This document shows, piece after piece, positions 5,503-62,820 of a stretch of 64,000 bases of DNA. The notes beneath the pieces were generated by a model. It had not been told where the DNA came from, did no database searches, and saw nothing but the letters and a program-made list of their open reading frames with translations. This DNA is from Citrus sinensis. Lineage: Eukaryota; Streptophyta; Magnoliopsida; Sapindales; Rutaceae. The stretch spans positions 10,317,001 through 10,381,000 of the forward strand of contig NC_068561.1 in the NCBI RefSeq assembly GCF_022201045.2. The letters are read 5' to 3'. Made by a program: the position numbers and the translations under genes. Within the stretch, counting starts at the first letter, position 1, and each line of letters starts with the position of its first letter.

Positions 5503-8500
5503 TTATGAGCCATAAGCAGATGCCGTCAGTACCTTCCGTGGCCCAGAAACCTCGTGAGTGCCAGCTGGCTTGTTGGATAATCGACGTCTGTACCGTTTGA
5601 GAACAGATGCCAAATTCTCTTTCCCTTTCGGAAAGGCCACATCCCCAGCAGCAGTGCCTGTTCGACCCTTCCGACAAGATATTGCATTTTCCACGTCCTT
5701 GATAAGGTCTAGGAGCATTGCTGCAGTTGTGCATTTCCCTTTTGCTGGTTTCACAGCAGGAGGCAACATGCCATTTGAAAGAGGAGGGCTTGACTTCTGA
5801 TGCACCGCAGGGATTTGAAGGCAAAAGCATGCCGACATTGGAGAACGAGGTCTTGAAAATGCCAAATCTATGACACCCTGTAAAATGTTATCGAAAAAGC
5901 AATACCGTCAAACTCCTCAAACCAGAAGACATAAGTAATGATAAATGATTCCAGTGTTCATGCTTCGTAGTTTGTACAAATCAAATAAGGGTACAAATTA
6001 GTTTTCCTAATAAAACCCAAAACACAAATCTCAAGAAGTCTTAATCATAATTTGGCTATAATATTCCTAAAATGATAATGACTCAAATGAAATTTCCCTG
6101 AGTGCAAACTTCATCATGTAAAATCCTCCTATGTGGAGCCATGAATGATAGATAATCCTATTCAACAAAATAACAGAATATAACCTGTCATATTTAGTCA
6201 ACCAGTAACCAAAACAATCATCTTACCACAGAAGCAATGGGCACTTGAAGCATATACTAGTCAGTTAAATAGATAAGCAGCTTTAAAAATTTACCTGAAG
6301 ACGATTCAATACGTAAGTATATTTTCCCCACAGTTCAGGCCGGCTCTCCATGAGGGAAAGATTAAGAATCCGGTGAATGCACCATACTCCGAAGCTTAAT
6401 ATCAAGTCCACTTTCCATATACAGCCATCTCCACAGTGAGGAACCGAGGAGACCATGAAGTTGGTAAAACTTGCCTCATCATTCTTCAGTGTGGAACCAA
6501 GCTTCCTTTCATAAGTCAAATAGTGAGATTCACCCATATGAACCACCTGGTTTTTCTCTCTAGTTTCAGCTTCATAAAGAAACTTCTCCCTAGCAGCCAC
6601 TCGATCAATTAAATCTTCATCAGCTCCATCATTATGTCTAAACAACCACTCAGATCCTTCTAATTGCAAAATCTTTACAATACAAACTCTAAAAGATTGG
6701 AGAAGTTTTGCTTCTGCATCAGCAATTGAAGTAGCTTCTTGAGAAATGGCATTTGACTTACTTTTATCAACTACACCAAACTGCTCAAAAGGCTGTCTAG
6801 ACCAAAGCGATCCAGCATCTAAGCCTGAACTTAACTGCATGGGGAAAGTATCTCTATAGATTTTTGATGGAGAGAGCTCATCAAACGCCAAAGTTGTTCC
6901 CGCCCTAGATCCAGGCTTCGAATACAGGGATGGTTCGTAACTTGGCCTCCCGATAGATGGCTTATATGCAATGGAACCATCCACACGAGCACCCTTATCG
7001 GACATAAATTGTTCCCTTAGGGGAACAGAAAGTCCCGATATGTCAGGCAAGCTATGGTATTTCTTTGCACTGGATGATGGTATAGAAACAGAATCAGCAG
7101 GTCCAGAAGAGGAAACATCAAAATATGATCTTTCAGATTGCAATTGAGTATTCCTAGATACTGCAAGGTTCTGCTGAAACCCAGAGGCTTGTACAGTGCT
7201 TCTTCCATTCTGCAGTTTCTGCCCCAAAGCAAAAGCAACTGAGTCCATGTAATTGGTAGGGCCCAAAGAGGGGGACTTGGGAGCTGGTGACTCCCGCTGA
7301 CCATTCAAGAAATCAGAATTTCTGTCCCTAGCCATTCGACTCAGATGTGCCAAGTCACAACCATGCACCGTTGCTGGCTGATAATTCCAGGAATCAGAAG
7401 ATGGTGCAGTGCGCAGACTAGAGTACCGCCTCTCACCGGAGTCTTCTGAAGGAATGCCCAGACCAGAGTACCGCCTTTCACTGGAGTCTTCAGATGAAAT
7501 GTGCAGACTAGAGTACCGCCTTTCACTGGAGTCTTCAGATGGAATGTGCAGACTAGAGTACCGCCTCTCACCAGAGTCTTCTAATGGAAAACGCAAACTA
7601 GAGTACCTCCTCTCACCAGAGTCTTCTGATGGAATTCGCAGACTAGAGTACCGCCTCTCACCAGAGGCTTCAGAAGGAATGCGTAAACTAGAGTACCGTC
7701 TCTCACCAGAGTCATGAACACTATGGTTGGCATTCTGCGCATATGCATCCAACAGCTGCATTTGATTGGACCACAATGACGAAGATCCCCTTTGAACTCC
7801 ATATGATGAGTCCATACTATTTTGCACTCTGTGCTTGGGAGAATCATATAAACTGGAATTCAACAGAGAATCAGGCACTCTGCCTACAGTTGGGATGTAT
7901 CCACTAAATTCCTTTGCCGAAGTATCGATTTTCAGAGAAGCGGGCTTTGAATCAACTCCTAGCACTAAATCCAGTTTCTTAGCCCTGGCTTCTTGAGTAA
8001 TTTGCCCGTGGTAGTCATACAACTGTCCCCAAAACTCGTCCAGAACCCCAGCTAATTGGCGTCGCGCGGCACGCCCCAACCCAACTAATCTTGAAAGGCT
8101 TCCAACACTACTCCCACCATCATCACTTTTCCCACTGAGACTCCTCAATGAAGCCGGACCATCAGACATCAAGGCTGAGGTACTCTCGGGTGCATCTTTG
8201 GATGATTCTTCAGTCTCAAGCTCAGTCTCAGGCTCCCAGGAATCTGCTTCATCATCATCCTTTTCAGTGCGTAAATCTCCTTCAACAGGAACTGTTTTCA
8301 CCATTGGATCTGCCGATTTGATCTTCAAGGATTTGCCATCCAACAAATCATCGCCAGTGACATCCTTCGCCCCAGTGGTTGAGGCAGACATTGAACCTAC
8401 AGCAGATGCTGATTCCTCTTGAAAACATATTGCGGGACTAGGAAATGCAATATTAGGATGGTTTTCCTCAATAGCAGCCAAACGAATTTCCTGATCAGAC

Positions 8501-18641: not shown

Positions 18642-18662
18642 TAAAAATTCATAAACACATTG

Positions 18663-18846
18663 TGTCATGACTCAACCCAGACCTGGCAAGATATTGTCCG
18701 CTTTGGGCCTTAACAAGGCCCGCACGGATTTGTTGGGGCGCCCATACACCCCAAAACGCGTCTTGCCAATTAAGGTGTGGATCACCCCTTATAAACCCAG
18801 CATCTCTCCCGTGCTTTGCCGATGTGGGATTCGCCTAGGTGTTACA
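18663..18846 (-). mobile_element. Solo LTR of a TRIM retrotransposon
   Basis: This 184-bp unit is a reverse-oriented relative of the two 188-bp repeats of the complete TRIM at 62361-62820. On the minus strand it runs from TGTAACACCTAGGCG to CATGACA. Perfect 5-bp duplications CATTG flank it (18658-18662 and 18847-18851). A lone LTR with its own target duplication is the usual product of recombination between the two LTRs of a full element. The long open frame across it is a by-product. Confidence 0.85.
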
Positions 18847-37630: not shown

Positions 37631-39068
37631 CAAGCCCTAGGCTCTAATACCATCTAGATTTTACAGAGGAAGAATGAGGAAGAATTCTCTTATTCAATTC
37701 CTTAAAAAATAGAGAAAACAAACAACTTAAATAGGGAAAAACATATGATTAATCCTATAATTAGGAACTAACTCATCTCATTCCTAAATCTTAGGATTTT
37801 ATCCAAATCTCTAACAAACAGATCCTAATCAATTATTTCTAATTTATCAACATATATTTCTGGGTTGTTTCTGCATGACTATAAATCCTTATGCATGTCC
37901 ACATCTTGCACTCTAGTTTTGCACAATTGCGTCTATGTGGTAAAAACTGTAGGATTTTATGGTGACTTCAACATCCAAGTTTCAAAATAATGTTAAATCG
38001 CCTCCTACTCCATTTTTATCAACTACAAATTGATTCTCAAAATTAAAATATCTACATGTTGTGAAAACCTGCTGAGCTATCATCTTTATTTCACAACAAA
38101 AGAAAAGTTGAGGCTGATGCAGGTGGAGAATTTTCTTTATAACTAGACGCGTTCGAGGCTTCCCTAGACATCGAACGTTCGAGCTTATGACCCTCATGGC
38201 TGCTGACGGAGCTGGTTACTAGCTCTCATTAATATGTCTTCCACCTTTACTACTACATCTTCTACTTTGACTTACCCTGCATCAACTAACTTTAACTAGT
38301 GTTTTGTTTGAGAGGGGCTAAAATGATTGCGAGCATTTAATTGTTTAAAAGGGCTCAACAATCTTTTCTTTTTGTTATTAGGTCTGGGCCACAAAAGTTC
38401 GCTGCTGGGCCTATGCTCCATTTCTCCGTTTTTTGAATTCTTGCTTGCAATTTCCATTTCCTTGTTTTGGGCTTCTCTGAAATTCATTAGGCCTATTATC
38501 CACTTCTTCCTCGTCTGTTTTTGCATAACCTTTGTCTGATGCTTTTGCATTGGCCTCTTCAATTTCAATTTCCCTCTAATTTTCACTTCATGCTCGTATG
38601 TTTTCGTTTCTAGAGAAGTTGTCATTGTCAGCTAGCTTATTCTGCTGCTGATTGATTTCTCTACCCATACTCTTGCCACTTTGACAACATATATCAGAGC
38701 ATAAATTATGTATCATAGCTGTATATATATTGTAATTATGAGTATCAGTAATTTCCTTATTTAGATAGATCTAATTACTAGAAATTAGCCTAGATTTAAT
38801 TGATGTAATAGCTGAAAATCAGCCTTGTAAATCTATACAATTTCTATATAATGAGAGGAACTCTCACAATGAGGGACATTTAATCCAATTGATATGGTAT
38901 CAGAGCCATAATTCAAAATTTTAGAAAATCATCTTGTGAGTCTAAGATCTTGGTTTTGGGTAGATTTATGGTATTCTTGTTGAGTGTTATTTCTGGTATT
39001 TTTTTTATGAAATCTTAGGTTAGTTGATTTGCTTTACTTCTTGTTGCATTTGGTGAGTTGCATGTAAC

Positions 39069-39898
39069 ATGTTAACTAGCAACATGAAAAATTTTGGTGT
39101 GCGTTTCACGGGTAAGAATTATTCTACTTGGGAATTTCAGTTTCGATTATTTGTCATAGGAAAGAAACTTTGGGGTCACATCGATGGTAGTGATCCAACT
39201 CTTCCTGACCCTCCTAAATTAGCTCAGTGGCAAGTCAAAGATGCTAGAGTCATGACGTGGATTATGAGATCAGTTCATCAGTCACTCGTTCCCAATCTGA
39301 AGCCACATAAGACAATTAAAGACATGTGGGAGTATTTGAAAAAGATTTATAATCAGGACAATACAACCAAACGTTTTCAGTTAGAATACGAGATTGTTAG
39401 GTACTCTCAGGGTGATCTCTCTATTTAAGATTATTTCTCTAGATTTCAGAACTTATGGACAAAATATGTTTGACATGATTTATGTCCAAGTACCAATTGA
39501 ATCTCTGGCTGATGTTCAAGAAGTGCATGAACAGAGCAAGCGAGATCAGTTTTTGATGAAACTATGTCCTGAATATGAGGCAGCCTGCTCCAATTTGATG
39601 AATCATGATCATTCTCCTTCTTTGGATGTGTGCTTTAAAGAATTACTTCGTGAAGAGCAATGTCTTGCAACACAACCTATTTTCCAGTAAAATAAAATGC
39701 ATTGATAATGCAATTGCTTATGTTACAGCTCATGGGAGAAGCAATGAGAGTGACATGCGACAAGTTCAATGCTTTAACTACAAGGAATACGAACATATTG
39801 CTGTTAACTGTGCAAAAAAATTTTGCACCTATTGTAAGAAGCATGGGCATATTATCAAAGAATGTCCTACTCGTCCCCAAAATTGTCAAGCTAGTTAG
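39069..39898 (+). pseudogene. Copia B gag
   Basis: The frame from ATG 39069 encodes the copia gag domain (GVRFTGKNYSTWEFQFRLF, then DMWEYLKKIYNQDN) up to a stop at 39426. The gag continues in other frames (39394-39690 and 39605-39898). The last ends with a CCHC zinc knuckle, CTYCKKHGHIIKEC, for binding of element RNA. The first knuckle upstream appears degraded (CFNYKEYEHIAVNC). Stops between the frames abolish a full gag. Confidence 0.8.
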
Positions 39899-39976
39899 GT
39901 CACTGTTGCTAATCAGGCTGTTGATGGTTTAACAACTGTTGATAAATCAGCTCTTACTCTAGAAATGGTTTAGTAG

Positions 39977-42000
39977 ATGATTATTACAATCTTTTCAGCC
40001 TTAGGGCTTCAAGGTAAACGCACTCTACCATCTTTCTCTTGGCTTTTCAATTCTGGTGCATCCAATCATATGACCAATTCCAGCGATACTCTTAACAATG
40101 TTCAAAAATATTATGGAAACATTCAGATTGCTCATGGTAGTAAGTTACCTATTCATGCTATTGGGGACATTAATTCTTCAATTAAAGATGTTCTTGTATC
40201 TCCTCAGCTTTCTACTAATCTTATTTCAGTAGGATAATTGGTTGATAATAACTGTGATGTTCGATTTTCCCGTGATGGTTGTATTGTGCAGGATCAGGTG
40301 TCAAGGAAGATACTAGCAAAGGGGCTTAAAGTTGGACACTTGTTTCCTTTGCACTTTTTTGTTTCTAATTTCATTTCTTTGGCTAGTATTGCTGTAAACC
40401 AAAAGAGTGAAGTATGACACAAACGTATAGGCCATCCTAATTCTGTTGTCCTATCTCATTTAATAAATTCAGGTTTATTGGGAAATAAAGATAAATTTTC
40501 CTCTCAATTGTCTATTGATTGCTCTGCTTGTAAATTAGGTAAAAGCAAGTCTCTTTCTTTTCCTTCTCATGGTAGTCGTGCAGAAAATTGTTTTGATATA
40601 ATTCATAGTGACGTGTGGGGCATTAGTCCTGTTATATCTCATGCCAATTATAAATACTTTGTCACATTCATTGATGGTTACAATAAGTATACTTGGATTT
40701 ATTTTCTTCGTTCGAAATCTGAGGTATTTTCTATCTTTAAAACACTTGTAGCCTATATTAAGACTCAATTTTCTTCAAATATTAAAGTGCTCAGATCATA
40801 TTCTGGTGGAGAATATATGTTCCATGAATTTCATGATTTTCTTCAGTAAAGGGGAATTGTTTCCTAACACTCTTGTCCTTATACGCCTCAACAAAATGGT
40901 GTTGCTGAATGTAAGAACCGTCATTTATTAGATGTTGTTCGAACTTTATTACTTGAATCTTTTGTTCCATCTAAATTCTGGGTTGAAGCCTTGAGTACAA
41001 CAATTTATTTAATTAATCGCTTGCCTTCAAGCGTCTTGAACTTTGAATCTCCTTATTATCGTCTTTATCATAAGCATCCCAACTATCTTGCATGCATACT
41101 TTTGGCTGTTTGTTTTGTTTATTTGCCACCTCATGCACATCATAAGCTTTTTGCTTAATCTGTTAAATGTGTTTTTATGGGATATAGTGCTTCACACAAA
41201 GGTTATGTTTGTTGCAATTGATGTTCTAACAGATTTCGTATTTCTCGTTATGTTATTTTCTTTGAAAATTAATTCTTCTTTTCTACATAAGTTGAGTCTT
41301 CATTAGAGTTATTCGTTCTTCCTAGTTTTGATGAGGTAAATACTACTATTGAAATATTCAAGCCTGGATTTGTTTATACACGACAACCTCCAACTTTGCA
41401 GCCTCATGAGCTTGATTCGACATATGAGCCTGTTCAAACTGTTTCTTCCACGGACAATCAGCCCTCAAGCACTACTGTTCGCCGCTCTTCCAGAATCATC
41501 CAATCACCTAATCGGTATGTATTTCACATATCTCTTCATACTACTTTGACCAGTGTTTCTATTCCTTTATGTTATTCAGAAGCTGCTAAATATGATTGTT
41601 GGCGTAAAACTATGAACTTCAAGCTTTTGAGGACAATCACACATGGGATATTGTTCATTGTCCGACTAATGTTAAATCTATTGGTTGTAAATGGGTCAAC
41701 TCAATCAAGCATAGTTCAGATGGTACTCTAGAGCGCTATAAGACACGACTAGTTACCCTTGGTAACAAACAAGAGTATGGAGCCAATTATAAAGAGACTT
41801 TTGCTCCGGTTGCGAAAATGACTACAGTCCGTACGGTTATTTCGATTGCTACCTCACAAGGCTGGCCACTTCATCAAATGGATGTTAAAAACTTTTTCTT
41901 CATAGTGATTTCAAAGAGGCGATTTACATGGTTTTACCATATGGCTTGTGTTCCTCCTCTTTTTTATATGTCTGTAAGTTGAAGCGATCGCTCTATAGGT
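39977..42000 (+). pseudogene. Copia B protease and integrase remnants
   Basis: Protease: WLFNSGASNHMT near 40040, where the catalytic Asp of the usual DSGAS motif is Asn. Integrase: a degenerate HHCC segment before 40520 (CSACKLGKSKSLSF), then the core with IIHSDVWGISPV (first Asp) and FVTFIDGYNKYTWIYFL (the second Asp lies in FID), followed by a stop near 40848 and a readable PQQNGVAECKNRHLL with the third acidic residue (E). The frames are shifted and interrupted. Confidence 0.75.
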
Positions 42001-43046
42001 TAAAGCAAGCTACCTGGGATTGGTTTGATAAATTCTTATCCACCTTGCTTCAATTCTCGTTTAAGCAAAGCCAATATGACTCATCATTGTTTCTTTGCAA
42101 GACATCTAATAATATTGTTCTTCTCTTACTTTATGTTGATGATATTGTTATTATTGGGACATATTCTGCCTTAATTGCTCAATTGCAACAACATCTTCAA
42201 GCCTCATTTCATATGAAGGATCTTGGTCCTCTTACTTATTTCTTCAGGGATTTCTTTAAATCAACATAAATACACACAAGATTTGCTTAAATTAGATGGT
42301 CTTCATGATGCCTCTCCCGTGGATACTCCACTAGAAGTCAACACAAAGTATCGTAGTGAGGAAGGTAAACTCATTTATGATCTTATTATCTATCGACAGT
42401 TGGTGGGAAGCTTGAATTATTTGACTATTACGAGGCCGGATATTCCTTTGTTGTCCAGCAAGTAAGCCAATTCATGCAACATCCCTGTCATTTACATTTA
42501 GCTGCTGTTCGTCATATCCTTCGATACCTTCGCGGGACTCCTAGCCGTGGATTGTTATTTTTTGCTGGTTTTTCTCCTCATCTTGTTGTCTATAATGACG
42601 CTGATTGGGCTAGATGTCCAGACACTCAACGATCTGTCATGGGTTGGTGCATGTTTTTTGGGAATTTCTTGATTTCTTGGACCAGTAAGAAGCAAGACCG
42701 TGTTTCTAAATCTTCAGCTGAATCTGAATACCGTGCTATGTCTGCTGCTTGTTCAAAGATTGTTTGGCTTCATGGACTTCTAGCCGATCTTGGTTTCTCT
42801 CAATCTAATCCTACTCCACTCCATGCTGATAACACTAGTGCTATTTATATTGCTTCAAACTCGGTTTTCCATGAGCGCACTAAGCATATTGAGGTGGATT
42901 ATCATTATATTTGCGAAGCTTTGGACACTCGTATTATTTCTCTTCCTCATATTTCCACAGCTCTTCAGAGAGCTGATGTATTTACCAAGGCTATGACACG
43001 AAATCGTCATCAATTTCTTGTGAGCAAACTGATGCTTCTTGATTGA
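41690..43046 (+). pseudogene. Copia B reverse transcriptase and RNase H
   Basis: RT motifs in order: [15 protein letters not shown] and [13 protein letters not shown] (about 41745-41835), [16 protein letters not shown] (about 41980-42030), LLLLYVDDIVIIG with an intact YVDD (about 42122-42155). The last frame, 42474-43046, is a complete copia RNase H: YNDADWARCPDTQRSV, SSAESEYRAMS, HADNTSAIYIA and RTKHIEVDYHYI, ending near the polypurine tract. Stops near 41880-41930 and frameshifts near 42230-42470 break the polyprotein. Confidence 0.8.
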
Positions 43047-45010
43047 CCAACATCAATTTGAGGGGGGATGACATCATATATCAAGGCATAAATTATGTAT
43101 CATAGCTGTATATATATTGTAATTAGAAGTATTTGTAATTTCCTTGTTTAGATAGATCTAATTACTAGAAATTAGCCTAAATTTGGTTGATGTAATAGCT
43201 AAAAATCAGCCTTGTAAATCTCTATAGTTTCTATATAATGGAGGAACTCTCACAATGAGGGACATTCAATCCAATTGATACACCTGATTGTGAATTTTTC
43301 GATGTTTCAGTACATTGAATTAATGAATTATCACTAGCTACTAGCTCACGATTTGTACTCATTGATCCAACTCTGTCTCCCACCTCATTGCCCGTTTTGT
43401 TTTGGGATGACCTGTTCAGGCCTATTAGGCATTGTTGGGTCTGGTATGACTTTGGTGTATTGACTCCTTTATCTTCTGCTTTTGATTGAAAATGTTCCCA
43501 ATTTCTCTTCTCCTTAGTTTGGTTCAGTTTCACCTTTTTTGCTTATGGTGGCTCTCATCTAAACTCCATATGATAGCTCCTCTTTTGGTTGTCCTTTGTA
43601 TTTTAAACACTCTCTAAACTGATGACCGATATATGTGGAGCAGAAATAGAAATCAGGTAACCTTTTACATAAGACTGGCGTTGGTATTTTCCCCCCTCTT
43701 GTTGTAAGAACACTACATTTTTCAAAGATTGTGTTATATTGATGGATATTCTAACTCGGGCAAATTGACCTATGTATTCACTTGCTTCGTCTTTTTGCCA
43801 ATCTTTTCTCTCAATTTTTGGATGATCTCTCGCCATACACATTATAGGTATATTGTGAATTGGTACCCAGAAAGAAGTATGCGTGAAGGACTATTTTTTA
43901 ATGTCTCCTATGCCGATTAGTTCAGCCAATACCAGAAAAGCTTTGTCAAAGTTCCATGGACCCCCTATAAACACTCCTTTATTTTCCCCTTCAGTGGCGA
44001 ACTTGAACAAGAACACATTATCCCCCATACTCTCAATCTTTACAATTCCTCTCCAACCCCCCCCCTGCCGTTTTCTTCATTCTTCCCATTAGTGTTACCG
44101 TATCTTCCCATTCTTCTTTTAAAACAATGGTTTGACACTTTCTAATTAATTCATTTGTATCTATATCTCCTTGAATATAGTACTTCGACAGTAAACTTCC
44201 ACCAACCCGACTGAACTGTAATTCAATCAACTTTTGAAAGCCTTTATCCAAAAGCTATTATGGAAATAAAAGAAAGTTTAAGGAAAAGAATAGACAAAAG
44301 ATGAAAAAACACCCAACTCGTGAGTGACTAAAAGCAAGCCATAGCGGCTTCAGTATACTTTCATTCTTGTATTTCTTTCAGAGAAAAAAGTACTGTAGAA
44401 GAAAAACAAAAAAAGACTCGAGCGTAGTTAGAACAACAATTAATAAAAATAAAGCAAATAATTAGTCACTACAATTTTCTAATAATCGAAAGAAAAACGG
44501 CTCCATAGAGTAAGGTCTAATTTATAAGTCTGGCCTAGTGAAATCATCTCAGCTTTCGTAGGTGAAGAGCTCATTTCAATTGATAAAAGTAAAGTAACAT
44601 ATTGTTTGGTACGATACACAACACAACAGAGTCACCGAATCTGAGTAGATAAATCTAAATCCAAATCTCAAATATTGAGATAAATGGTAATTAAGGGTAG
44701 GGATATTATTATTTTCCCACCAAAGATATTCCGACACATCATGTCAGTACCATGATTTGGTAAAACCATCAGTTTACCACTAAACGTTTAAACTATTAGC
44801 ATTTTCCCACCATTCCGTTAAAACTTAGTTAATATGTAACGGAAAATTCATAAAAGGTCAATTTTACCCCTGGAGCGTAAAAGATAATTTTACTCTTTAA
44901 GAAGGAAGAACAACAAATGATGATTTAATTACAAAATTCATAAAAGATTAATTACATGGTCTTTTAAAAGGTCAATTTTATAAAATTCATAAAGGGCAAA
45001 ACAAAAAGGG

Positions 45011-45070
45011 CAGTCAACTCCATTTGTTAGAACAGCTTCCATTGAGTCTCTGCACCTATCCCCCTTTTTC
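45011..45070 (-). pseudogene. trnL-UAA: Plastid trnL(UAA) intron fragment
   Basis: On the minus strand this reads AAAAAGGGGGATAGGTGCAG and continues AGACTCAATGGAAGCTGTTC, then TAACAAATGGAGTTGACTGC, which I recognise as the highly conserved segment of the chloroplast trnL(UAA) group I intron. Only about 55-60 bp are present, without the tRNA exons, so it cannot make a tRNA. Recognition is from memory of a much-sequenced barcode region. Confidence 0.8.
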
Positions 45071-45166
45071 GCGATCTTCAACCAATTCTGCGCTTGAATA
45101 TAATTACCAGGAGTAAGCGCAATAGCTTGTTTCCAATACTCGGCAGCTTGATTGAACCAAGCCTCC
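45071..45166 (-). pseudogene. ycf3: Plastid ycf3 3' fragment
   Basis: The minus-strand translation contains [20 protein letters not shown] and then [11 protein letters not shown], which is the last TPR-like part of Ycf3, a chloroplast protein needed for photosystem I assembly. The final codons of ycf3 are replaced by trnL-intron sequence, and the 5' side stops at the direct repeat, so only about 31 codons remain. The frame runs open from ycf3 through the trnL part, but there is no start and no sign of a gene. ycf3 and trnL are both in the large single-copy region of the plastid genome. Confidence 0.88.
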
Positions 45167-45537
45167 TTTAAGAAGGAAGAACAACAAATGATGATTTAAT
45201 TACAAAATTCATAAAAAATTAATTACATGGTCTTTTAAAAGGTCAATTTTACAAAATTCATAAAGGGTAATTTTTGTCCTTTAAGAAGGAAGAACAACAA
45301 ATGATGATTTAATTACAAAATTCATAAAAGGTTAATTACATGGTTTTTTACGCTCCAGGGGTAAAATTGACCTTTTATGAATTTTCCGTTACATATTAAT
45401 TGAGTTTTAACGGAATGGTGGGAAAATGCTAACAGTTTAAACGTTTGGTGGTAAACTGATGGTTTTACCAAACCGTGGTACTGACATGATGTGTCAGAAT
45501 AACTTTGGTGGGAAAATGATAATATCCCTTAAGGGTA

Positions 45538-45760
45538 AGGGATATTATCGTCCTGATATATGTTCTATACATATAAGATAATTGTACAAATAGCTAATTG
45601 TTCATATTTAGATTAACATTCATGTTTACAACTCTTCAATTTATTCAAAGAAACAGCATGCATCAAGATTACGTTTGCCGAAAAAGCAAATCATAAAACA
45701 GAGTGGTATATAAATTGAGTAAAAGTTCAATATATATACGCGTGTGTGTATATATATCTA

Positions 45761-45793
<33 letters not shown>

Positions 45794-46208
45794 ATATGCA
45801 TATATGATGTCCTATTGAGACTTGATATTCTAATTTCTCAAATCCACATCTAATTTGTTTTAAATAATTCGAGGTATATTTATTATTTCCGTATAAAATT
45901 CATGATTCATTCAAATTTTATGATTTTATACCATAATTTTCACTTGTTATTAACATAAATTGGATTTTTGAAATTAAAGAGCCTAGTGTATACTACGTAC
46001 TTGTACCCTATGGTACAACGCAATTGAAGCACGAATGGGGTTTTTCCTTTTCCCATGACTAAACCCTAGCTCTGCAATTGTTTACTCTCTCTCCCTTCCT
46101 CTCGTGTGGGTCTCTGTTAGTCTTTGTTTGCATGTAACTTCTTATAAACAAAAAATAAAAAACCCTCAAATTTCAGAATCACAAATACCCACTTTGCGAA
46201 TTCAAGGA
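45538..46208. other. Upstream region of the PPR gene
   Basis: Spacer containing TA/TG-rich simple sequence at about 45735-45810 and, further right, the presumed promoter and leader of the PPR gene. A pyrimidine-rich stretch (CTCTCTCTCCCTTCCTCTC) at about 46085-46103 is a likely leader or initiator feature. No coding sequence. Confidence 0.5.
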
Positions 46209-48464
46209 ATGGCCTTGATCTCCCTCTCTAAACCCCACCAATTAAAGCCTAGGGTTCATCCAATCATATCCAGAATCGAAGCTCCGTATTCTCTCATTCT
46301 CCCCCATTTCTTCTGCTCAATCAATGACCAGCAGCAGACCCAAGACAGCCCCGCTCCGAACCCGGATCCGTTTCAAGCAGATGAAGAACCGAGCCAGAGG
46401 CAGAGGATCCCAAGAGGTAACCACCGATCCCCAGTAAAGTTAGAGGATACAATATGTAAACTGATGGCTGAGCGGGCATGGACGACCCGGTTACAGAACA
46501 AGATTCGGGCTTTAGTGCCCCAATTTGATCACAACCTTGTTTACAATGTACTTCACGGAGCAAAGAATTCGGAGCATGCGCTCCAGTTCTTCCGGTGGGT
46601 TGAGCGTGCCGGGTTGTTTAACCATGACCGAGAAACCCATTTGAAAATGATTGAAATCTTAGGCCGTGTTGGCAAGTTAAATCATGCTAGGTGTATTTTG
46701 TTGGATATGCCGAAAAAGGGTGTTCAATGGGATGAAGATATGTTTGAAGTCTTGATTGAAAGTTACGGTAAAAAGGGAATTGTTCAAGAGTCTGTCAAAA
46801 TTTTTGATATAATGAAGCAATTGGGTGTTGAGAGGAGTGTTAAATCTTATGATGCTTTGTTTAAGTTGATCCTTAGGCGTGGTCGCTATATGATGGCCAA
46901 GAGGTACTTTAACAAGATGCTGAGTGAAGGGATTGAGCCTACTCGGCATACTTATAATGTTATGCTTTGGGGGTTCTTTTTGAGTTTGAAGCTTGAGACT
47001 GCCATAAGGTTTTTTGAGGATATGAAGAGTAGGGGGATCTCCCCGGATGTTGTTACATATAATACCATGATTAATGGATATAATCGGTTTAAGAAAATGG
47101 ATGAGGCAGAGAAGTTGTTTGCGGAGATGAAGGAGAAGAATATTGAGCCTACCGTTATTAGTTATACTACTATGATAAAAGGGTATGTTGCTGTTGAGCG
47201 AGCTGATGATGCACTTAGGATATTTGATGAAATGAAGTCGTTTGATGTTAAGCCAAATGCAGTTACTTATACTGCTCTGTTGCCGGGGTTGTGTGATGCA
47301 GGAAAGATGGTTGAAGTGCAGAAGGTTTTGAGGGAGATGGTAGAGAGGTATATTCCTCCCAAGGATAATTCAGTATTTATGAAGCTCTTGGGTGTTCAGT
47401 GTAAGTCTGGGCACTTAAATGCTGCTGCGGATGTGCTTAAGGCAATGATTCGATTGAGCATTCCAACAGAGGCTGGACATTATGGTATCTTAATTGAGAA
47501 CTTCTGCAAGGCTGAGATGTATGATCGGGCAATTAAGTTGTTGGATAAGCTTGTTGAGAAGGAGATTATTTTGAGGCCACAGAGTACTTTGGATATGGAG
47601 GCTAGTTCTTATAACCCGATGATACAGCATCTGTGCCACAATGGTCAGACAGGAAAAGCTGAAATCTTTTTTAGGCAATTAATGAAAAAGGGTGTTTTAG
47701 ATCCTGTTGCCTTCAATAATTTGATCCGTGGCCATTCAAAAGAAGGGAATCCAGACTCTGCTTTTGAAATTGTTAAGATTATGGGTCGGAGAGGAGTGCC
47801 TAGAGATGCTGATGCTTACATATGTCTGATTGAGAGCTATTTGAGGAAAGGTGAGCCAGCCGATGCTAAAACTGCTTTAGATAGTATGATTGAAGATGGA
47901 CATTCTCCAGCGTCCTCACTATTTAGGTCAGTGATGGAGAGCCTGTTTGAAGATGGGAGGGTTCAGACTGCAAGCAGAGTTATGAAGAGCATGGTGGAGA
48001 AGGGCGTGAAGGAGAACTTGGATTTGGTTGCCAAGATTTTGGAAGCTCTTCTCATGAGAGGCCATGTTGAGGAAGCCCTTGGACGTATTGATCTAATGAT
48101 GCAAAGTGGGTCCGTACCCAATTTCGATAGTCTTCTATCTGTTCTCTCTGAGAAAGGGAAGACTATTGCTGCTGTTAAGTTGTTGGATTTCTGTTTGGGA
48201 AGAGACTGCATCATAGACTTGGCGAGTTATGAGAAGGTGTTGGATGCTCTCTTGGCAGCTGGGAAGACCCTCAATGCCTATTCAATATTATTTAAAATAA
48301 TGGAGAAAGGAGGGGTCACTGATTGGAAGAGCAGTGACAAGTTGATTGCTGGCCTTAATCAAGAAGGGAACACGAAGCAAGCAGATATACTCTCCAGAAT
48401 GATTAGAGGGGAGATGTCCCGCGGGAGCCAAAAAGAGAAGAAACAAAGTGCTGTTGCCAGCTAA
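46209..48464 (+). CDS. P-class pentatricopeptide repeat protein, At2g37230-like
   Basis: A single uninterrupted exon encodes 751 residues from ATG 46209 (MALISLSKPHQ) to TAA 48464. The frame stays open upstream to 46104, but there is only GTG there, so 46209 is the natural start. The N-terminus is basic and serine-rich with few acids, consistent with an organelle-targeting peptide, probably mitochondrial. A conserved lead segment (ERAWTTRLQNKIRALVPQFD) precedes a long array of 35-residue PPR motifs, for example EDMFEVLIESYGKKGIVQES and VVTYNTMINGYNRFKKMDEA. No E or DYW domain is present, so it is a P-class PPR, of the sort that stabilises or processes specific organelle transcripts. The wording, including LNQEGNTKQADILSRMI near the end, closely follows Arabidopsis At2g37230 as I recall it. 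The RNA target is unknown. Confidence 0.93.
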   Translation: MALISLSKPHQLKPRVHPIISRIEAPYSLILPHFFCSINDQQQTQDSPAPNPDPFQADEEPSQRQRIPRGNHRSPVKLEDTICKLMAERAWTTRLQNKIRALVPQFDHNLVYNVLHGAKNSEHALQFFRWVERAGLFNHDRETHLKMIEILGRVGKLNHARCILLDMPKKGVQWDEDMFEVLIESYGKKGIVQESVKIFDIMKQLGVERSVKSYDALFKLILRRGRYMMAKRYFNKMLSEGIEPTRHTYNVMLWGFFLSLKLETAIRFFEDMKSRGISPDVVTYNTMINGYNRFKKMDEAEKLFAEMKEKNIEPTVISYTTMIKGYVAVERADDALRIFDEMKSFDVKPNAVTYTALLPGLCDAGKMVEVQKVLREMVERYIPPKDNSVFMKLLGVQCKSGHLNAAADVLKAMIRLSIPTEAGHYGILIENFCKAEMYDRAIKLLDKLVEKEIILRPQSTLDMEASSYNPMIQHLCHNGQTGKAEIFFRQLMKKGVLDPVAFNNLIRGHSKEGNPDSAFEIVKIMGRRGVPRDADAYICLIESYLRKGEPADAKTALDSMIEDGHSPASSLFRSVMESLFEDGRVQTASRVMKSMVEKGVKENLDLVAKILEALLMRGHVEEALGRIDLMMQSGSVPNFDSLLSVLSEKGKTIAAVKLLDFCLGRDCIIDLASYEKVLDALLAAGKTLNAYSILFKIMEKGGVTDWKSSDKLIAGLNQEGNTKQADILSRMIRGEMSRGSQKEKKQSAVAS

Positions 48465-60435: not shown

Positions 60436-62360
60436 AGACATTGTTTGCAAGGTGCTTAACATCATCACTACACTACAGTATGCTTATGCTTATGGTATAT
60501 GAATTCAATTAATTGTTCTTTAAGTTTAGATATCAAAGTGTAGGAAACATGCCCAGTTAGGCAAATTAGATTATTACGTATTTTTGCGGTTTTCTGTGGT
60601 TAGTCTATACGCATATTTTCATTTTACTTAGAGTAGCTAGTTTGGTGATAACTTTGAGAAATGTCATGTATATATAAGTAATGGAATGAATAATTTCCTC
60701 GATTCCTAAATTTTACAGCTACTACAAGAAGATTACAAGTATAAACTGTAGGTTCCACTTAAACACTCAAATGAAATGGACTGCATCAGTTTGGGCTAAT
60801 TGTCTTTACCTTTCTCTATATACAGAACACCCATCTCTAAGTTACCGCCATCAGAAAGGGATGGCTTACTGACAACGCTCAAAATTTCGTATAGAACTCT
60901 TTTGTAATTGAAATTTCTTAAATAACCAAAGATAAATAATTTATTTTTTAATTTCGAATAGAATTCAATTAAACAATTAAATAGATTCTTCTTTTAAAAT
61001 TTTTTTACATCCACCATATTTCATAATTTATGTTTTTATATTTTAAATGTTAGTCAATATTTTTCTAAGAAAAATAAAAGAGTTTGAAGTTATGGAGATA
61101 GAAATTATATGATAAGAATAAAATAATTTAAGATTTTAGGATCTGTATGTACTTTTTCAATAAAAACTTAAAAAGAAATATTTTTTGGGTTTGCATTTTA
61201 TAAACTAAAATAGGGATATTTTAGGAAATAATAATTTAAAGGTGTTAATAAGGATTTTAATGGGTATTAAAAGCTCTACTCCAACGGAAAATGTCCATAT
61301 TTTGAGGAATGTGCATGTGGGTGTGGGTGTGCGTGCTCTTTATCTTCCATGAGTTTCTATTGATGTCAAAACATATGGAATAAGCCCAGCCTGAGCAAGA
61401 CAAACCCACGTGGGCCTCGACTTAGTGGGAAATTCTATCATCTCTAGTTCAAAAATAATACTAAGAATCCTACCATTTGAGTCTAACTTAAGTGCCAATT
61501 GATATAGCATTTTATTACTGGATGATAGAATATTAATTTTACCAATTATGAAATTCATTATCTAATATATGAATGACACATAACAGTTGAGATTTAAATT
61601 GAGACTTAACTATTGAGATTCTTCATATTATTACAAGTTAAAATTATAATGTGCTTTGTGCAATCTCATAAGTATATATATATATATAGTAACCAATGCA
61701 ACCTTGCACAATTTGGGCGGGTAGGGTTAGGTTAAAAAAAAAAAAATACTTAACCTAACAAGTTATATGAAGTTCAACTAACAATATTAGTAGGTTGGTA
61801 TTTTCTAATCCAGCCCAATCTAATCCACAGACCAACAATCATTTTAATAAATATTGTTTGGGAATAAATTTCGAGTGATATTCTTGAACTAAAAAATGAA
61901 TGACACGTGAACAATTACACGGGTAAAATTGGCAAAGTACTTAGAGCAATAAGCAATATAAAGATGCCATTTGAAAGAATTTATTACAAGAATATTAATG
62001 GCCAAAGTTTAACGTTTTAAGATATAAAAGAATAAATATAGTACAAAAGGAATATTCTTATTTTTTCCCCTAAATATGAGACATAGCCTTAAAAACATCC
62101 TCTCCTTTTAACTTAAGGATGACAACTAGCTCTATTTTTTATGCACTCTCCTTACAAATAGTCTCCACTATGTAAATGTCTTATTCACCCACATTGGGGG
62201 TGCTCCTCTTCTCTTCTTTTTTTTCCTCCCAATTTTAGATCATCAACCACCTCTCAATTTCTAGGAGACTATTTCTATTCTTTACTTTCATCATTTTCTC
62301 TACCATATTATCACTCTCCATATCTTAATTCACCATCTTCATCTCCACCAACACCAAATA
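60436..62360. other. 3' flank of the channel gene and AT-rich spacer
   Basis: About the first 300 bp are the probable 3'UTR of the CNGC15-like gene. The rest is AT-rich with no supported gene. Sequence from about 62100 to 62360 may belong to a larger LTR-like repeat that resumes at 62821 after the inserted TRIM. Confidence 0.5.
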
Positions 62361-62820
62361 TGTAACACCCTGGACGAATCCCACATTGGCAAAGCACGAG
62401 AGAGATGCTGGGTTTATAAGGGGTGATCCACACCTTAATTGGTAAGATGCGTTTTGGGGTGTGTGGGAGCCCTAGGAACAAAACCGTGTGGGCTTTATTA
62501 AGGCCCAAAACGGACAATATCTTGCCAGGTCTGGGTTGGGTCATGACATTATGTTATCAGAGCTCCACGTGTCCTCTTGAGCGATGGTGGGGCAAACCTC
62601 AGCGAGGATATTGAGTCCCCAGGGGGGGTGTATGTAACACCCTAGGCGAATCCCACATCGACAAAGTATAGGAGAGATGCTGTATTTATAAGGTGTGATC
62701 CACACCTTAATTGGCAAGACACGTTTTAGGGTGTATGGGCTCCTCAGGAATAAAACCGTGCGGGCCTTGTTAAGGTCTAAAGTGGACAATATCTTGCCAG
62801 GTCTAGCTTGGGTCATGACA
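62361..62820 (+). mobile_element. Complete TRIM retrotransposon
   Basis: Two 188-bp direct repeats, 62361-62548 and 62633-62820, both start TGTAACACCCT and end TCATGACA. They flank an 84-bp interior. The interior starts with TTATGTTATCAGAGC, a degenerate initiator-tRNA-Met primer site, and ends in a purine-rich tract (about 62618-62630, AGGGGGGGTG). Perfect 5-bp duplications AAATA flank the whole (62356-62360 and 62821-62825). Total 460 bp with no coding capacity: a terminal-repeat retrotransposon in miniature that must use proteins from other elements. The LTRs differ at roughly a tenth or more of positions, so insertion is not recent. Confidence 0.93.

Follow-up and report, generated by a model that had tools for sequence, protein, structure and literature searches.

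A two-piece plastid patch inside a Mutator-type transposon of Citrus sinensis is most likely a repair scar

Complex NUPTs, in which several fragments are joined, form an established class (PMC6215612), and organelle DNA has been described as filler at breaks, with 1 to 7 bp of microhomology (PMC7037861). Plant break repair may also involve short filler copied from nearby sequence, and the inserts at induced breaks in that plant study were of nuclear origin, so that a plastid filler would not be the norm (PMC3289645). In animals, single-copy Pack-TIRs have been reported to form mostly without transposition, by gap filling, with internal breakpoints and a median of 2 bp of microhomology (PMC8277862). 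The interior of maize Mu4 is reported to consist of two fused chromosome fragments (PMC3276141). No report of a plastid-carrying Pack-MULE was found in a literature search on MULEs or Pack-MULEs with plastid DNA and on NUPTs with MITEs or transposons, papers beyond that range not being covered; the words plastid and chloroplast are absent from the main text of PMC8903248 and PMC13317346.

The locus described here lies in a window of 64,000 nucleotides (C6:10317001-10381000 of the host genome), the whole stretch of DNA that was analysed. It is a non-autonomous Mutator-type element of 829 bp (window 44700-45528) with a plastid-derived block between units of its internal tandem array (Table 1). 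Like Pack-MULEs, it has TIR-MULE ends and a TSD that enclose foreign coding fragments; unlike them, it shows no sign of having multiplied with its cargo, the cargo is plastid, and the interior typical of the family is still there, interrupted by the block. No host nuclear gene fragment, the mark of a Pack-MULE, was found between the TIRs, where the foreign fragments are plastid-like. The block shares with complex NUPTs two plastid fragments, short or no overlap and possibly filler-type junctions (PMC6215612; PMC7037861), but it is very short (~165 bp) and sits within a transposon's internal array. With the animal single-copy Pack-TIRs it has in common a foreign filler inside a TIR element, a single copy and short overlaps, whereas the host here is a plant, the filler is organellar and there are two pieces; by analogy, the block looks like a plant, plastid-filled counterpart of those elements (PMC8277862). 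Among Citrus transposons, the element resembles the Mutator-type MITEs of the DTM series, which are non-autonomous, have TIRs and a 9- to 10-bp TSD and insert near genes, although most full-length MITEs in that report are shorter than 800 bp (PMC6466647). CitMule, a citrus MULE described as being without long TIRs (PMC4334395), is therefore a different kind.

Table 1. Positions (in the window) of the parts of the element and of the plastid-derived block.
Feature	Position	Strand	Evidence
5' TSD TTAAGGGTA	44691..44699	.	letters read; 9-bp flank control across the family
5' TIR	44700..44882	+	inverted-repeat alignment
Internal unit 1 of the family's 113-bp tandem array, 3' end truncated by the block	44895..44996	+	
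CAAAA, possible 5-bp filler; ambiguous alignment, part may be array unit	44997..45001	.	
trnL(UAA) group I intron piece	45002..45070	-, sense strand	62/69 to L074 inside RF00028; L075 too
Junction bases trnL/ycf3	45071-45072		
ycf3 exon 3 piece	45073..45166	-, sense strand	94/94 to C11 and C10
Internal unit 2; first 2-3 bases common to the end of the ycf3 piece	45166..45277	+	
Internal unit 3, partial, 73-bp	45278..45350	+	
3' TIR	45346..45528	-	inverted-repeat alignment
3' TSD TTAAGGGTA	45529..45537	.	

The two TIR arms are 95.1% identical over 183 bp, where TIR-MULEs have TIRs of ~100 to 200 bp or more, and the TSD is perfect (9 of 9 bases), where 9 to 11 bp are usual. The internal units that border the block are 97% alike over 105 bp. 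Local duplication during the same repair event as the block is one possible origin of units 1 and 2; unit 1 differs at 4 positions over 106 from a unit of a family member (L057) and likewise at 4 from unit 2 of the same element.

The host genome searched comprises 299.7 Mb in 11 contigs (C1 to C9, 25 to 52 Mb; C10, 632.5 kb; C11, 132.5 kb). A 23-base terminus pattern (≤3 mismatches) gave 352 matches in this genome, 175 forward and 177 reverse, and the reversed-pattern control gave 0; if all are paired, these termini would be the ends of ~176 elements. After identical sequences were merged, 59 loci (L001-L030 and L039-L067) yielded 39 distinct two-ended elements, with L004, L025, L028 and L030 left out because the second end was absent within their flanks. 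Two of the genome searches scored subsets of their candidates (40 of 372 and 40 of 92). The 9-bp flank duplication was exact in 29 of the 39 paired copies and had at most one mismatch in 35, while mispaired flanks, which served as the control, were exact in 0 of 1,482 and had at most one mismatch in 14 of 1,482.

Several length forms were present in the family. The form of ~557 to 560 bp has one 113-bp unit plus the 73-bp partial unit, and that of 669 to 672 bp has two units plus the partial unit in L012 and L040; L021, also within this length, has a different left interior. Further forms measured 740 bp, 817 to 847 bp (another interior) and 1,012 to 1,020 bp (a third interior), along with a few odd lengths between them. 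Among the longer relatives, a 0.6-kb interior is common to L018 and L022 and recurs in shortened version in L021, so it looks like a subfamily rather than private cargo.

A larger relative (L078, G000:C2:11968389-11973639) has ~5.25 kb between family-type ends, its end stretches being 89 to 94% identical to those of the element, and encodes MuDR (PF03108, 30.2 bits) and MULE (PF10551, 59.9 bits) transposase domains on two separate reading-frame pieces. As L078 carries both domains, the family is Mutator-type on grounds beyond the TSD alone; L078 may serve, or once have served, as a helper element. A second pair of family termini lies 5.2 kb apart at C2:20321384-20326614. The initial annotation had called the element MULE-like, with 183-bp TIRs and a perfect 9-bp TSD, and all of this was confirmed by the arms, by the family-wide 9-bp duplications with their control and by the transposase-encoding relative.

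The element lies ~0.6 to 0.7 kb upstream of a PPR gene (ORF 46104-48464; PF13041, 283 bits). It is also 1.5 kb downstream of a pair of 172-bp repeats (38682-38853 and 43069-43240, 91% identity), which enclose reading-frame pieces that by eye resemble a Copia-like retrotransposon (38682-43240). One base past the 3' TSD, GGGATATTATC (45538-45549) consists of an 11-base copy of the family terminus followed by unrelated sequence. Among the 60-bp flanks of the 39 elements, an exact terminus copy was found here only, and a one-mismatch copy in L053; GGGATATTATC may have been left behind, as a remnant or excision scar, by a family member that previously occupied this site. Elsewhere in the window, a tandem repeat with a 45-bp period occupies 7360-7719 (six registers, 64 to 86% identical to the reference copy), and a dispersed repeat occurs as a direct pair (62359-62548 and 62631-62820) with inverted matches at 18651-18839 (84 to 92%).

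In BLAST comparisons, 45070-45166 matched ycf3 exon 3 at 96 of 97 bases, both in C11 and in C10. The sole mismatch falls at 45072, beside the inner junction, and the 94 bases from 45073 to 45166 are identical throughout, which bears out the plastid derivation proposed for the ycf3 part. The C11 stretch adjoins Rfam matches to group II and Plastid-ycf3 introns and reads as an in-frame protein, which we take to be the C terminus of ycf3. C11 is plastome-like because of its size and the plastid genes in the stretches examined, and C10, from its size and the plastid genes in its examined stretches, appears mitochondrion-like. As the ycf3 match is the same in C11 and in the plastid tract of C10, the immediate source is indistinguishable. 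The C10 tract (L073, C10:321000-330999) contains ycf3 introns, tRNA-Ser(GGA) and tRNA-Thr(UGU), and it is identical to C11 over ~160 bases around the ycf3 end.

The other piece matched a nuclear relic (L074, C7:27924856) at 62 of 69 bases. This match lies within a hit to Rfam Intron_gpI (RF00028, 109.7 bits), which follows a trnL 5' exon motif that deviates at one base. The piece also matched a further relic (L075, C2:12815926), ~0.6 kb upstream of a tRNA-Phe gene. Both relics are older nuclear plastid relics with trnL intron sequence, and their aligned parts are 90% (L074) and 83% (L075) identical to the block. The trnL identity is drawn from the two relics and Rfam, with C11 reading partly as N and holding no readable counterpart. 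A non-plastid identity of the block was rejected on the ycf3 identity to C11 and the trnL-intron and Rfam matches. The trnL-intron/ycf3 chimera described in the initial annotation thus stands in that both pieces are plastid-like, but the plastid-like sequence starts at ~45002 and not at 45011.

Between array units 1 and 2, the block reads as CAAAA, 69 bases of trnL, 2 junction bases and 94 bases of ycf3, the plastid-derived patch amounting to ~165 bases in total. The two pieces point in the same direction. The minus strand of C11 carries ycf3, and in angiosperm plastomes trnL lies on the plus strand. As the pieces have the same direction in the block and lie on opposite plastome strands, a simple deletion would not join them. 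The block holds two non-adjacent plastid stretches, as a complex NUPT does, with ycf3 assigned directly to C11 and trnL assigned through the two relics and Rfam.

Two family members, L012 (672 bp) and L040 (669 bp), share the three-unit interior but lack the block, the array being continuous across the insertion point; these are the block-free copies for which the initial annotation had advised a search. Compared with these relatives, from which the pre-event sequence is inferred, ~10 bp of an array unit are absent at the block, and the element minus its block would be ~670 bp long. The left junction has a possible 5-bp filler, the inner junction an overlap of 0 to 1 bp and the right junction an overlap of CC or TCC. 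With ~10 bp lost, possible filler and overlaps of 0 to 3 bp, which are also expected by chance, the junctions look like products of end joining.

Searched with a 161-base query, the block had 7 candidate places in the genome, all of which were scored: this element; ycf3 in C11 and C10; ycf3 relics in C3 and C7; and trnL relics in C7 and C2. The junction is spanned with high identity in this element alone. The alignment to the C2 relic, at 83% overall, extends beyond the trnL part by up to 15 bases; it was discounted as a second junction, as the overrun also resembles ordinary trnL-intron context. In the readable genome, a second full copy of the block was found neither with a 75-base query (3 places) nor with a 30-base pattern allowing 3 mismatches (2 places), the count covering readable sequence, with organelle stretches that read N outside it. 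The block search matched none of the other 38 paired family copies. Multiplication of the element with its plastid cargo, raised in the initial annotation together with a search for further copies of the trnL-ycf3 junction, is not supported, as 1 of the 7 places spans both pieces and no second junction was found in the readable genome. Likewise, spread of the block by transposition was not supported, as it occupies one place only in the searchable genome.

A decay test compared the element, without unit 1 and the block, with the majority of 14 relatives shorter than 600 bp. The element had C>T or G>A at 13 of 180 C/G sites, compared with 0 of 41 in the ycf3 part (Fisher P = 0.064) and 0 of 62 in the ycf3 part plus the trnL sites on which both relics agree (Fisher P = 0.019). 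All substitutions together gave a Fisher P of 0.091 against the ycf3 part. The trnL sites use an inferred ancestor, with 12 of 69 dropped because L074 and L075 disagree, and at 1 of the 57 agreed sites a C in the block corresponds to T in both relics. As the total C>T/G>A counts are lower in the block, they point to a block younger than the element. However, no more than 2 of the 13 changes are unique to this copy, and on these the shortage in the block is absent (probabilities of 0.63 and 0.50), so the patch may have preceded or followed the landing. The evidence on timing from C>T decay is weak and conflicting. No empty paralogous site was found: the left flank had no second match in the genome, and, among the 40 of 195 candidates that were scored, the right flank matched elsewhere only through a TA-rich repeat at query positions 182-277.

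As the block has a single copy in the searchable genome, block-free siblings share the array and the junctions are end-joining-like, we favour, at a probability of roughly 0.7, a two-fragment plastid filler (a complex NUPT) patched into the internal array of the landed element by break repair. A non-autonomous TIR-MULE of this MITE-like family, presumably mobilised by the MuDR/MULE transposase of larger relatives, would have inserted upstream of the PPR gene. A double-strand break would then have arisen within the 113-bp tandem array, and end joining would have sealed it, using as filler two separate plastid scraps that derive from the trnL intron and from ycf3 exon 3. The break probably occurred after landing, the repair would be of the NHEJ or polymerase-theta type, and the filler may have come directly from plastids rather than from the matching mitochondrial copy.

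The scraps could instead have been acquired elsewhere, when a gap was repaired in the course of the element's transposition cycle at a previous site, with one subsequent move producing a single-copy plastid-carrying Pack-MULE. Enclosure of the block by intact ends and a perfect TSD agrees with such a history, as do the private changes, which give no age gap between element and block, and the fused captured fragments of maize Mu4 (PMC3276141). However, no second or donor copy of the block was found in the searchable genome, the block looks younger on the total C>T/G>A counts, and the family interior is interrupted by the block rather than replaced, and we consider this course unlikely. The broader proposition that a plant MULE family takes up organelle DNA through gap repair in the transposition cycle, with this copy a mobile plastid-carrying Pack-MULE before its multiplication, is distinctly doubtful. 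The interpretation in the initial annotation holds for element type, TIRs, TSD and chimera; spread is not supported, and capture in the Pack-MULE sense would be the less likely course, as the block interrupts the element's own array with end-joining-like junctions, the pattern expected from filler repair of a break within a resident element.

It is also conceivable, though very improbable, that the element received as one piece a trnL-ycf3 join already present elsewhere, either in an organelle molecule that had been rearranged or in another nuclear plastid insertion. One filler piece would then suffice, and N stretches in C10 and C11 could conceal the junction; yet the other 6 matched places hold ycf3 alone or trnL alone, and where ycf3 can be read in C10 and C11, normal plastid DNA follows. 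The joining of two loci, which the initial annotation had found unusual, is not so in itself, complex NUPTs being a known class (PMC6215612) and the interior of maize Mu4 being reported as fused fragments (PMC3276141). An assembly error, in which the near-identical internal units (97% over 105 bp) flank a false join with organelle reads, seems extremely improbable. Organelle reads are abundant in plant libraries, but the block is short, with differences at its junctions and complete array parts on either side, and a false organelle join would be expected to bring longer organelle sequence.

Overall, the patch most likely records break repair within a transposon rather than the spread of chloroplast DNA by one; transposon-mediated spread of plastid DNA is not supported. 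It is an ordinary kind of event and an instructive case, as the sequence that probably filled a break within the element can be identified almost base by base. Repair scars formed in place can mimic gene capture by a Pack-MULE, and block-free siblings, copy number and position within the internal array help to separate scar from capture. If the patch were dated by allelic or species data, the transfer of organelle DNA to the nucleus could be ordered relative to the landing of the transposon.
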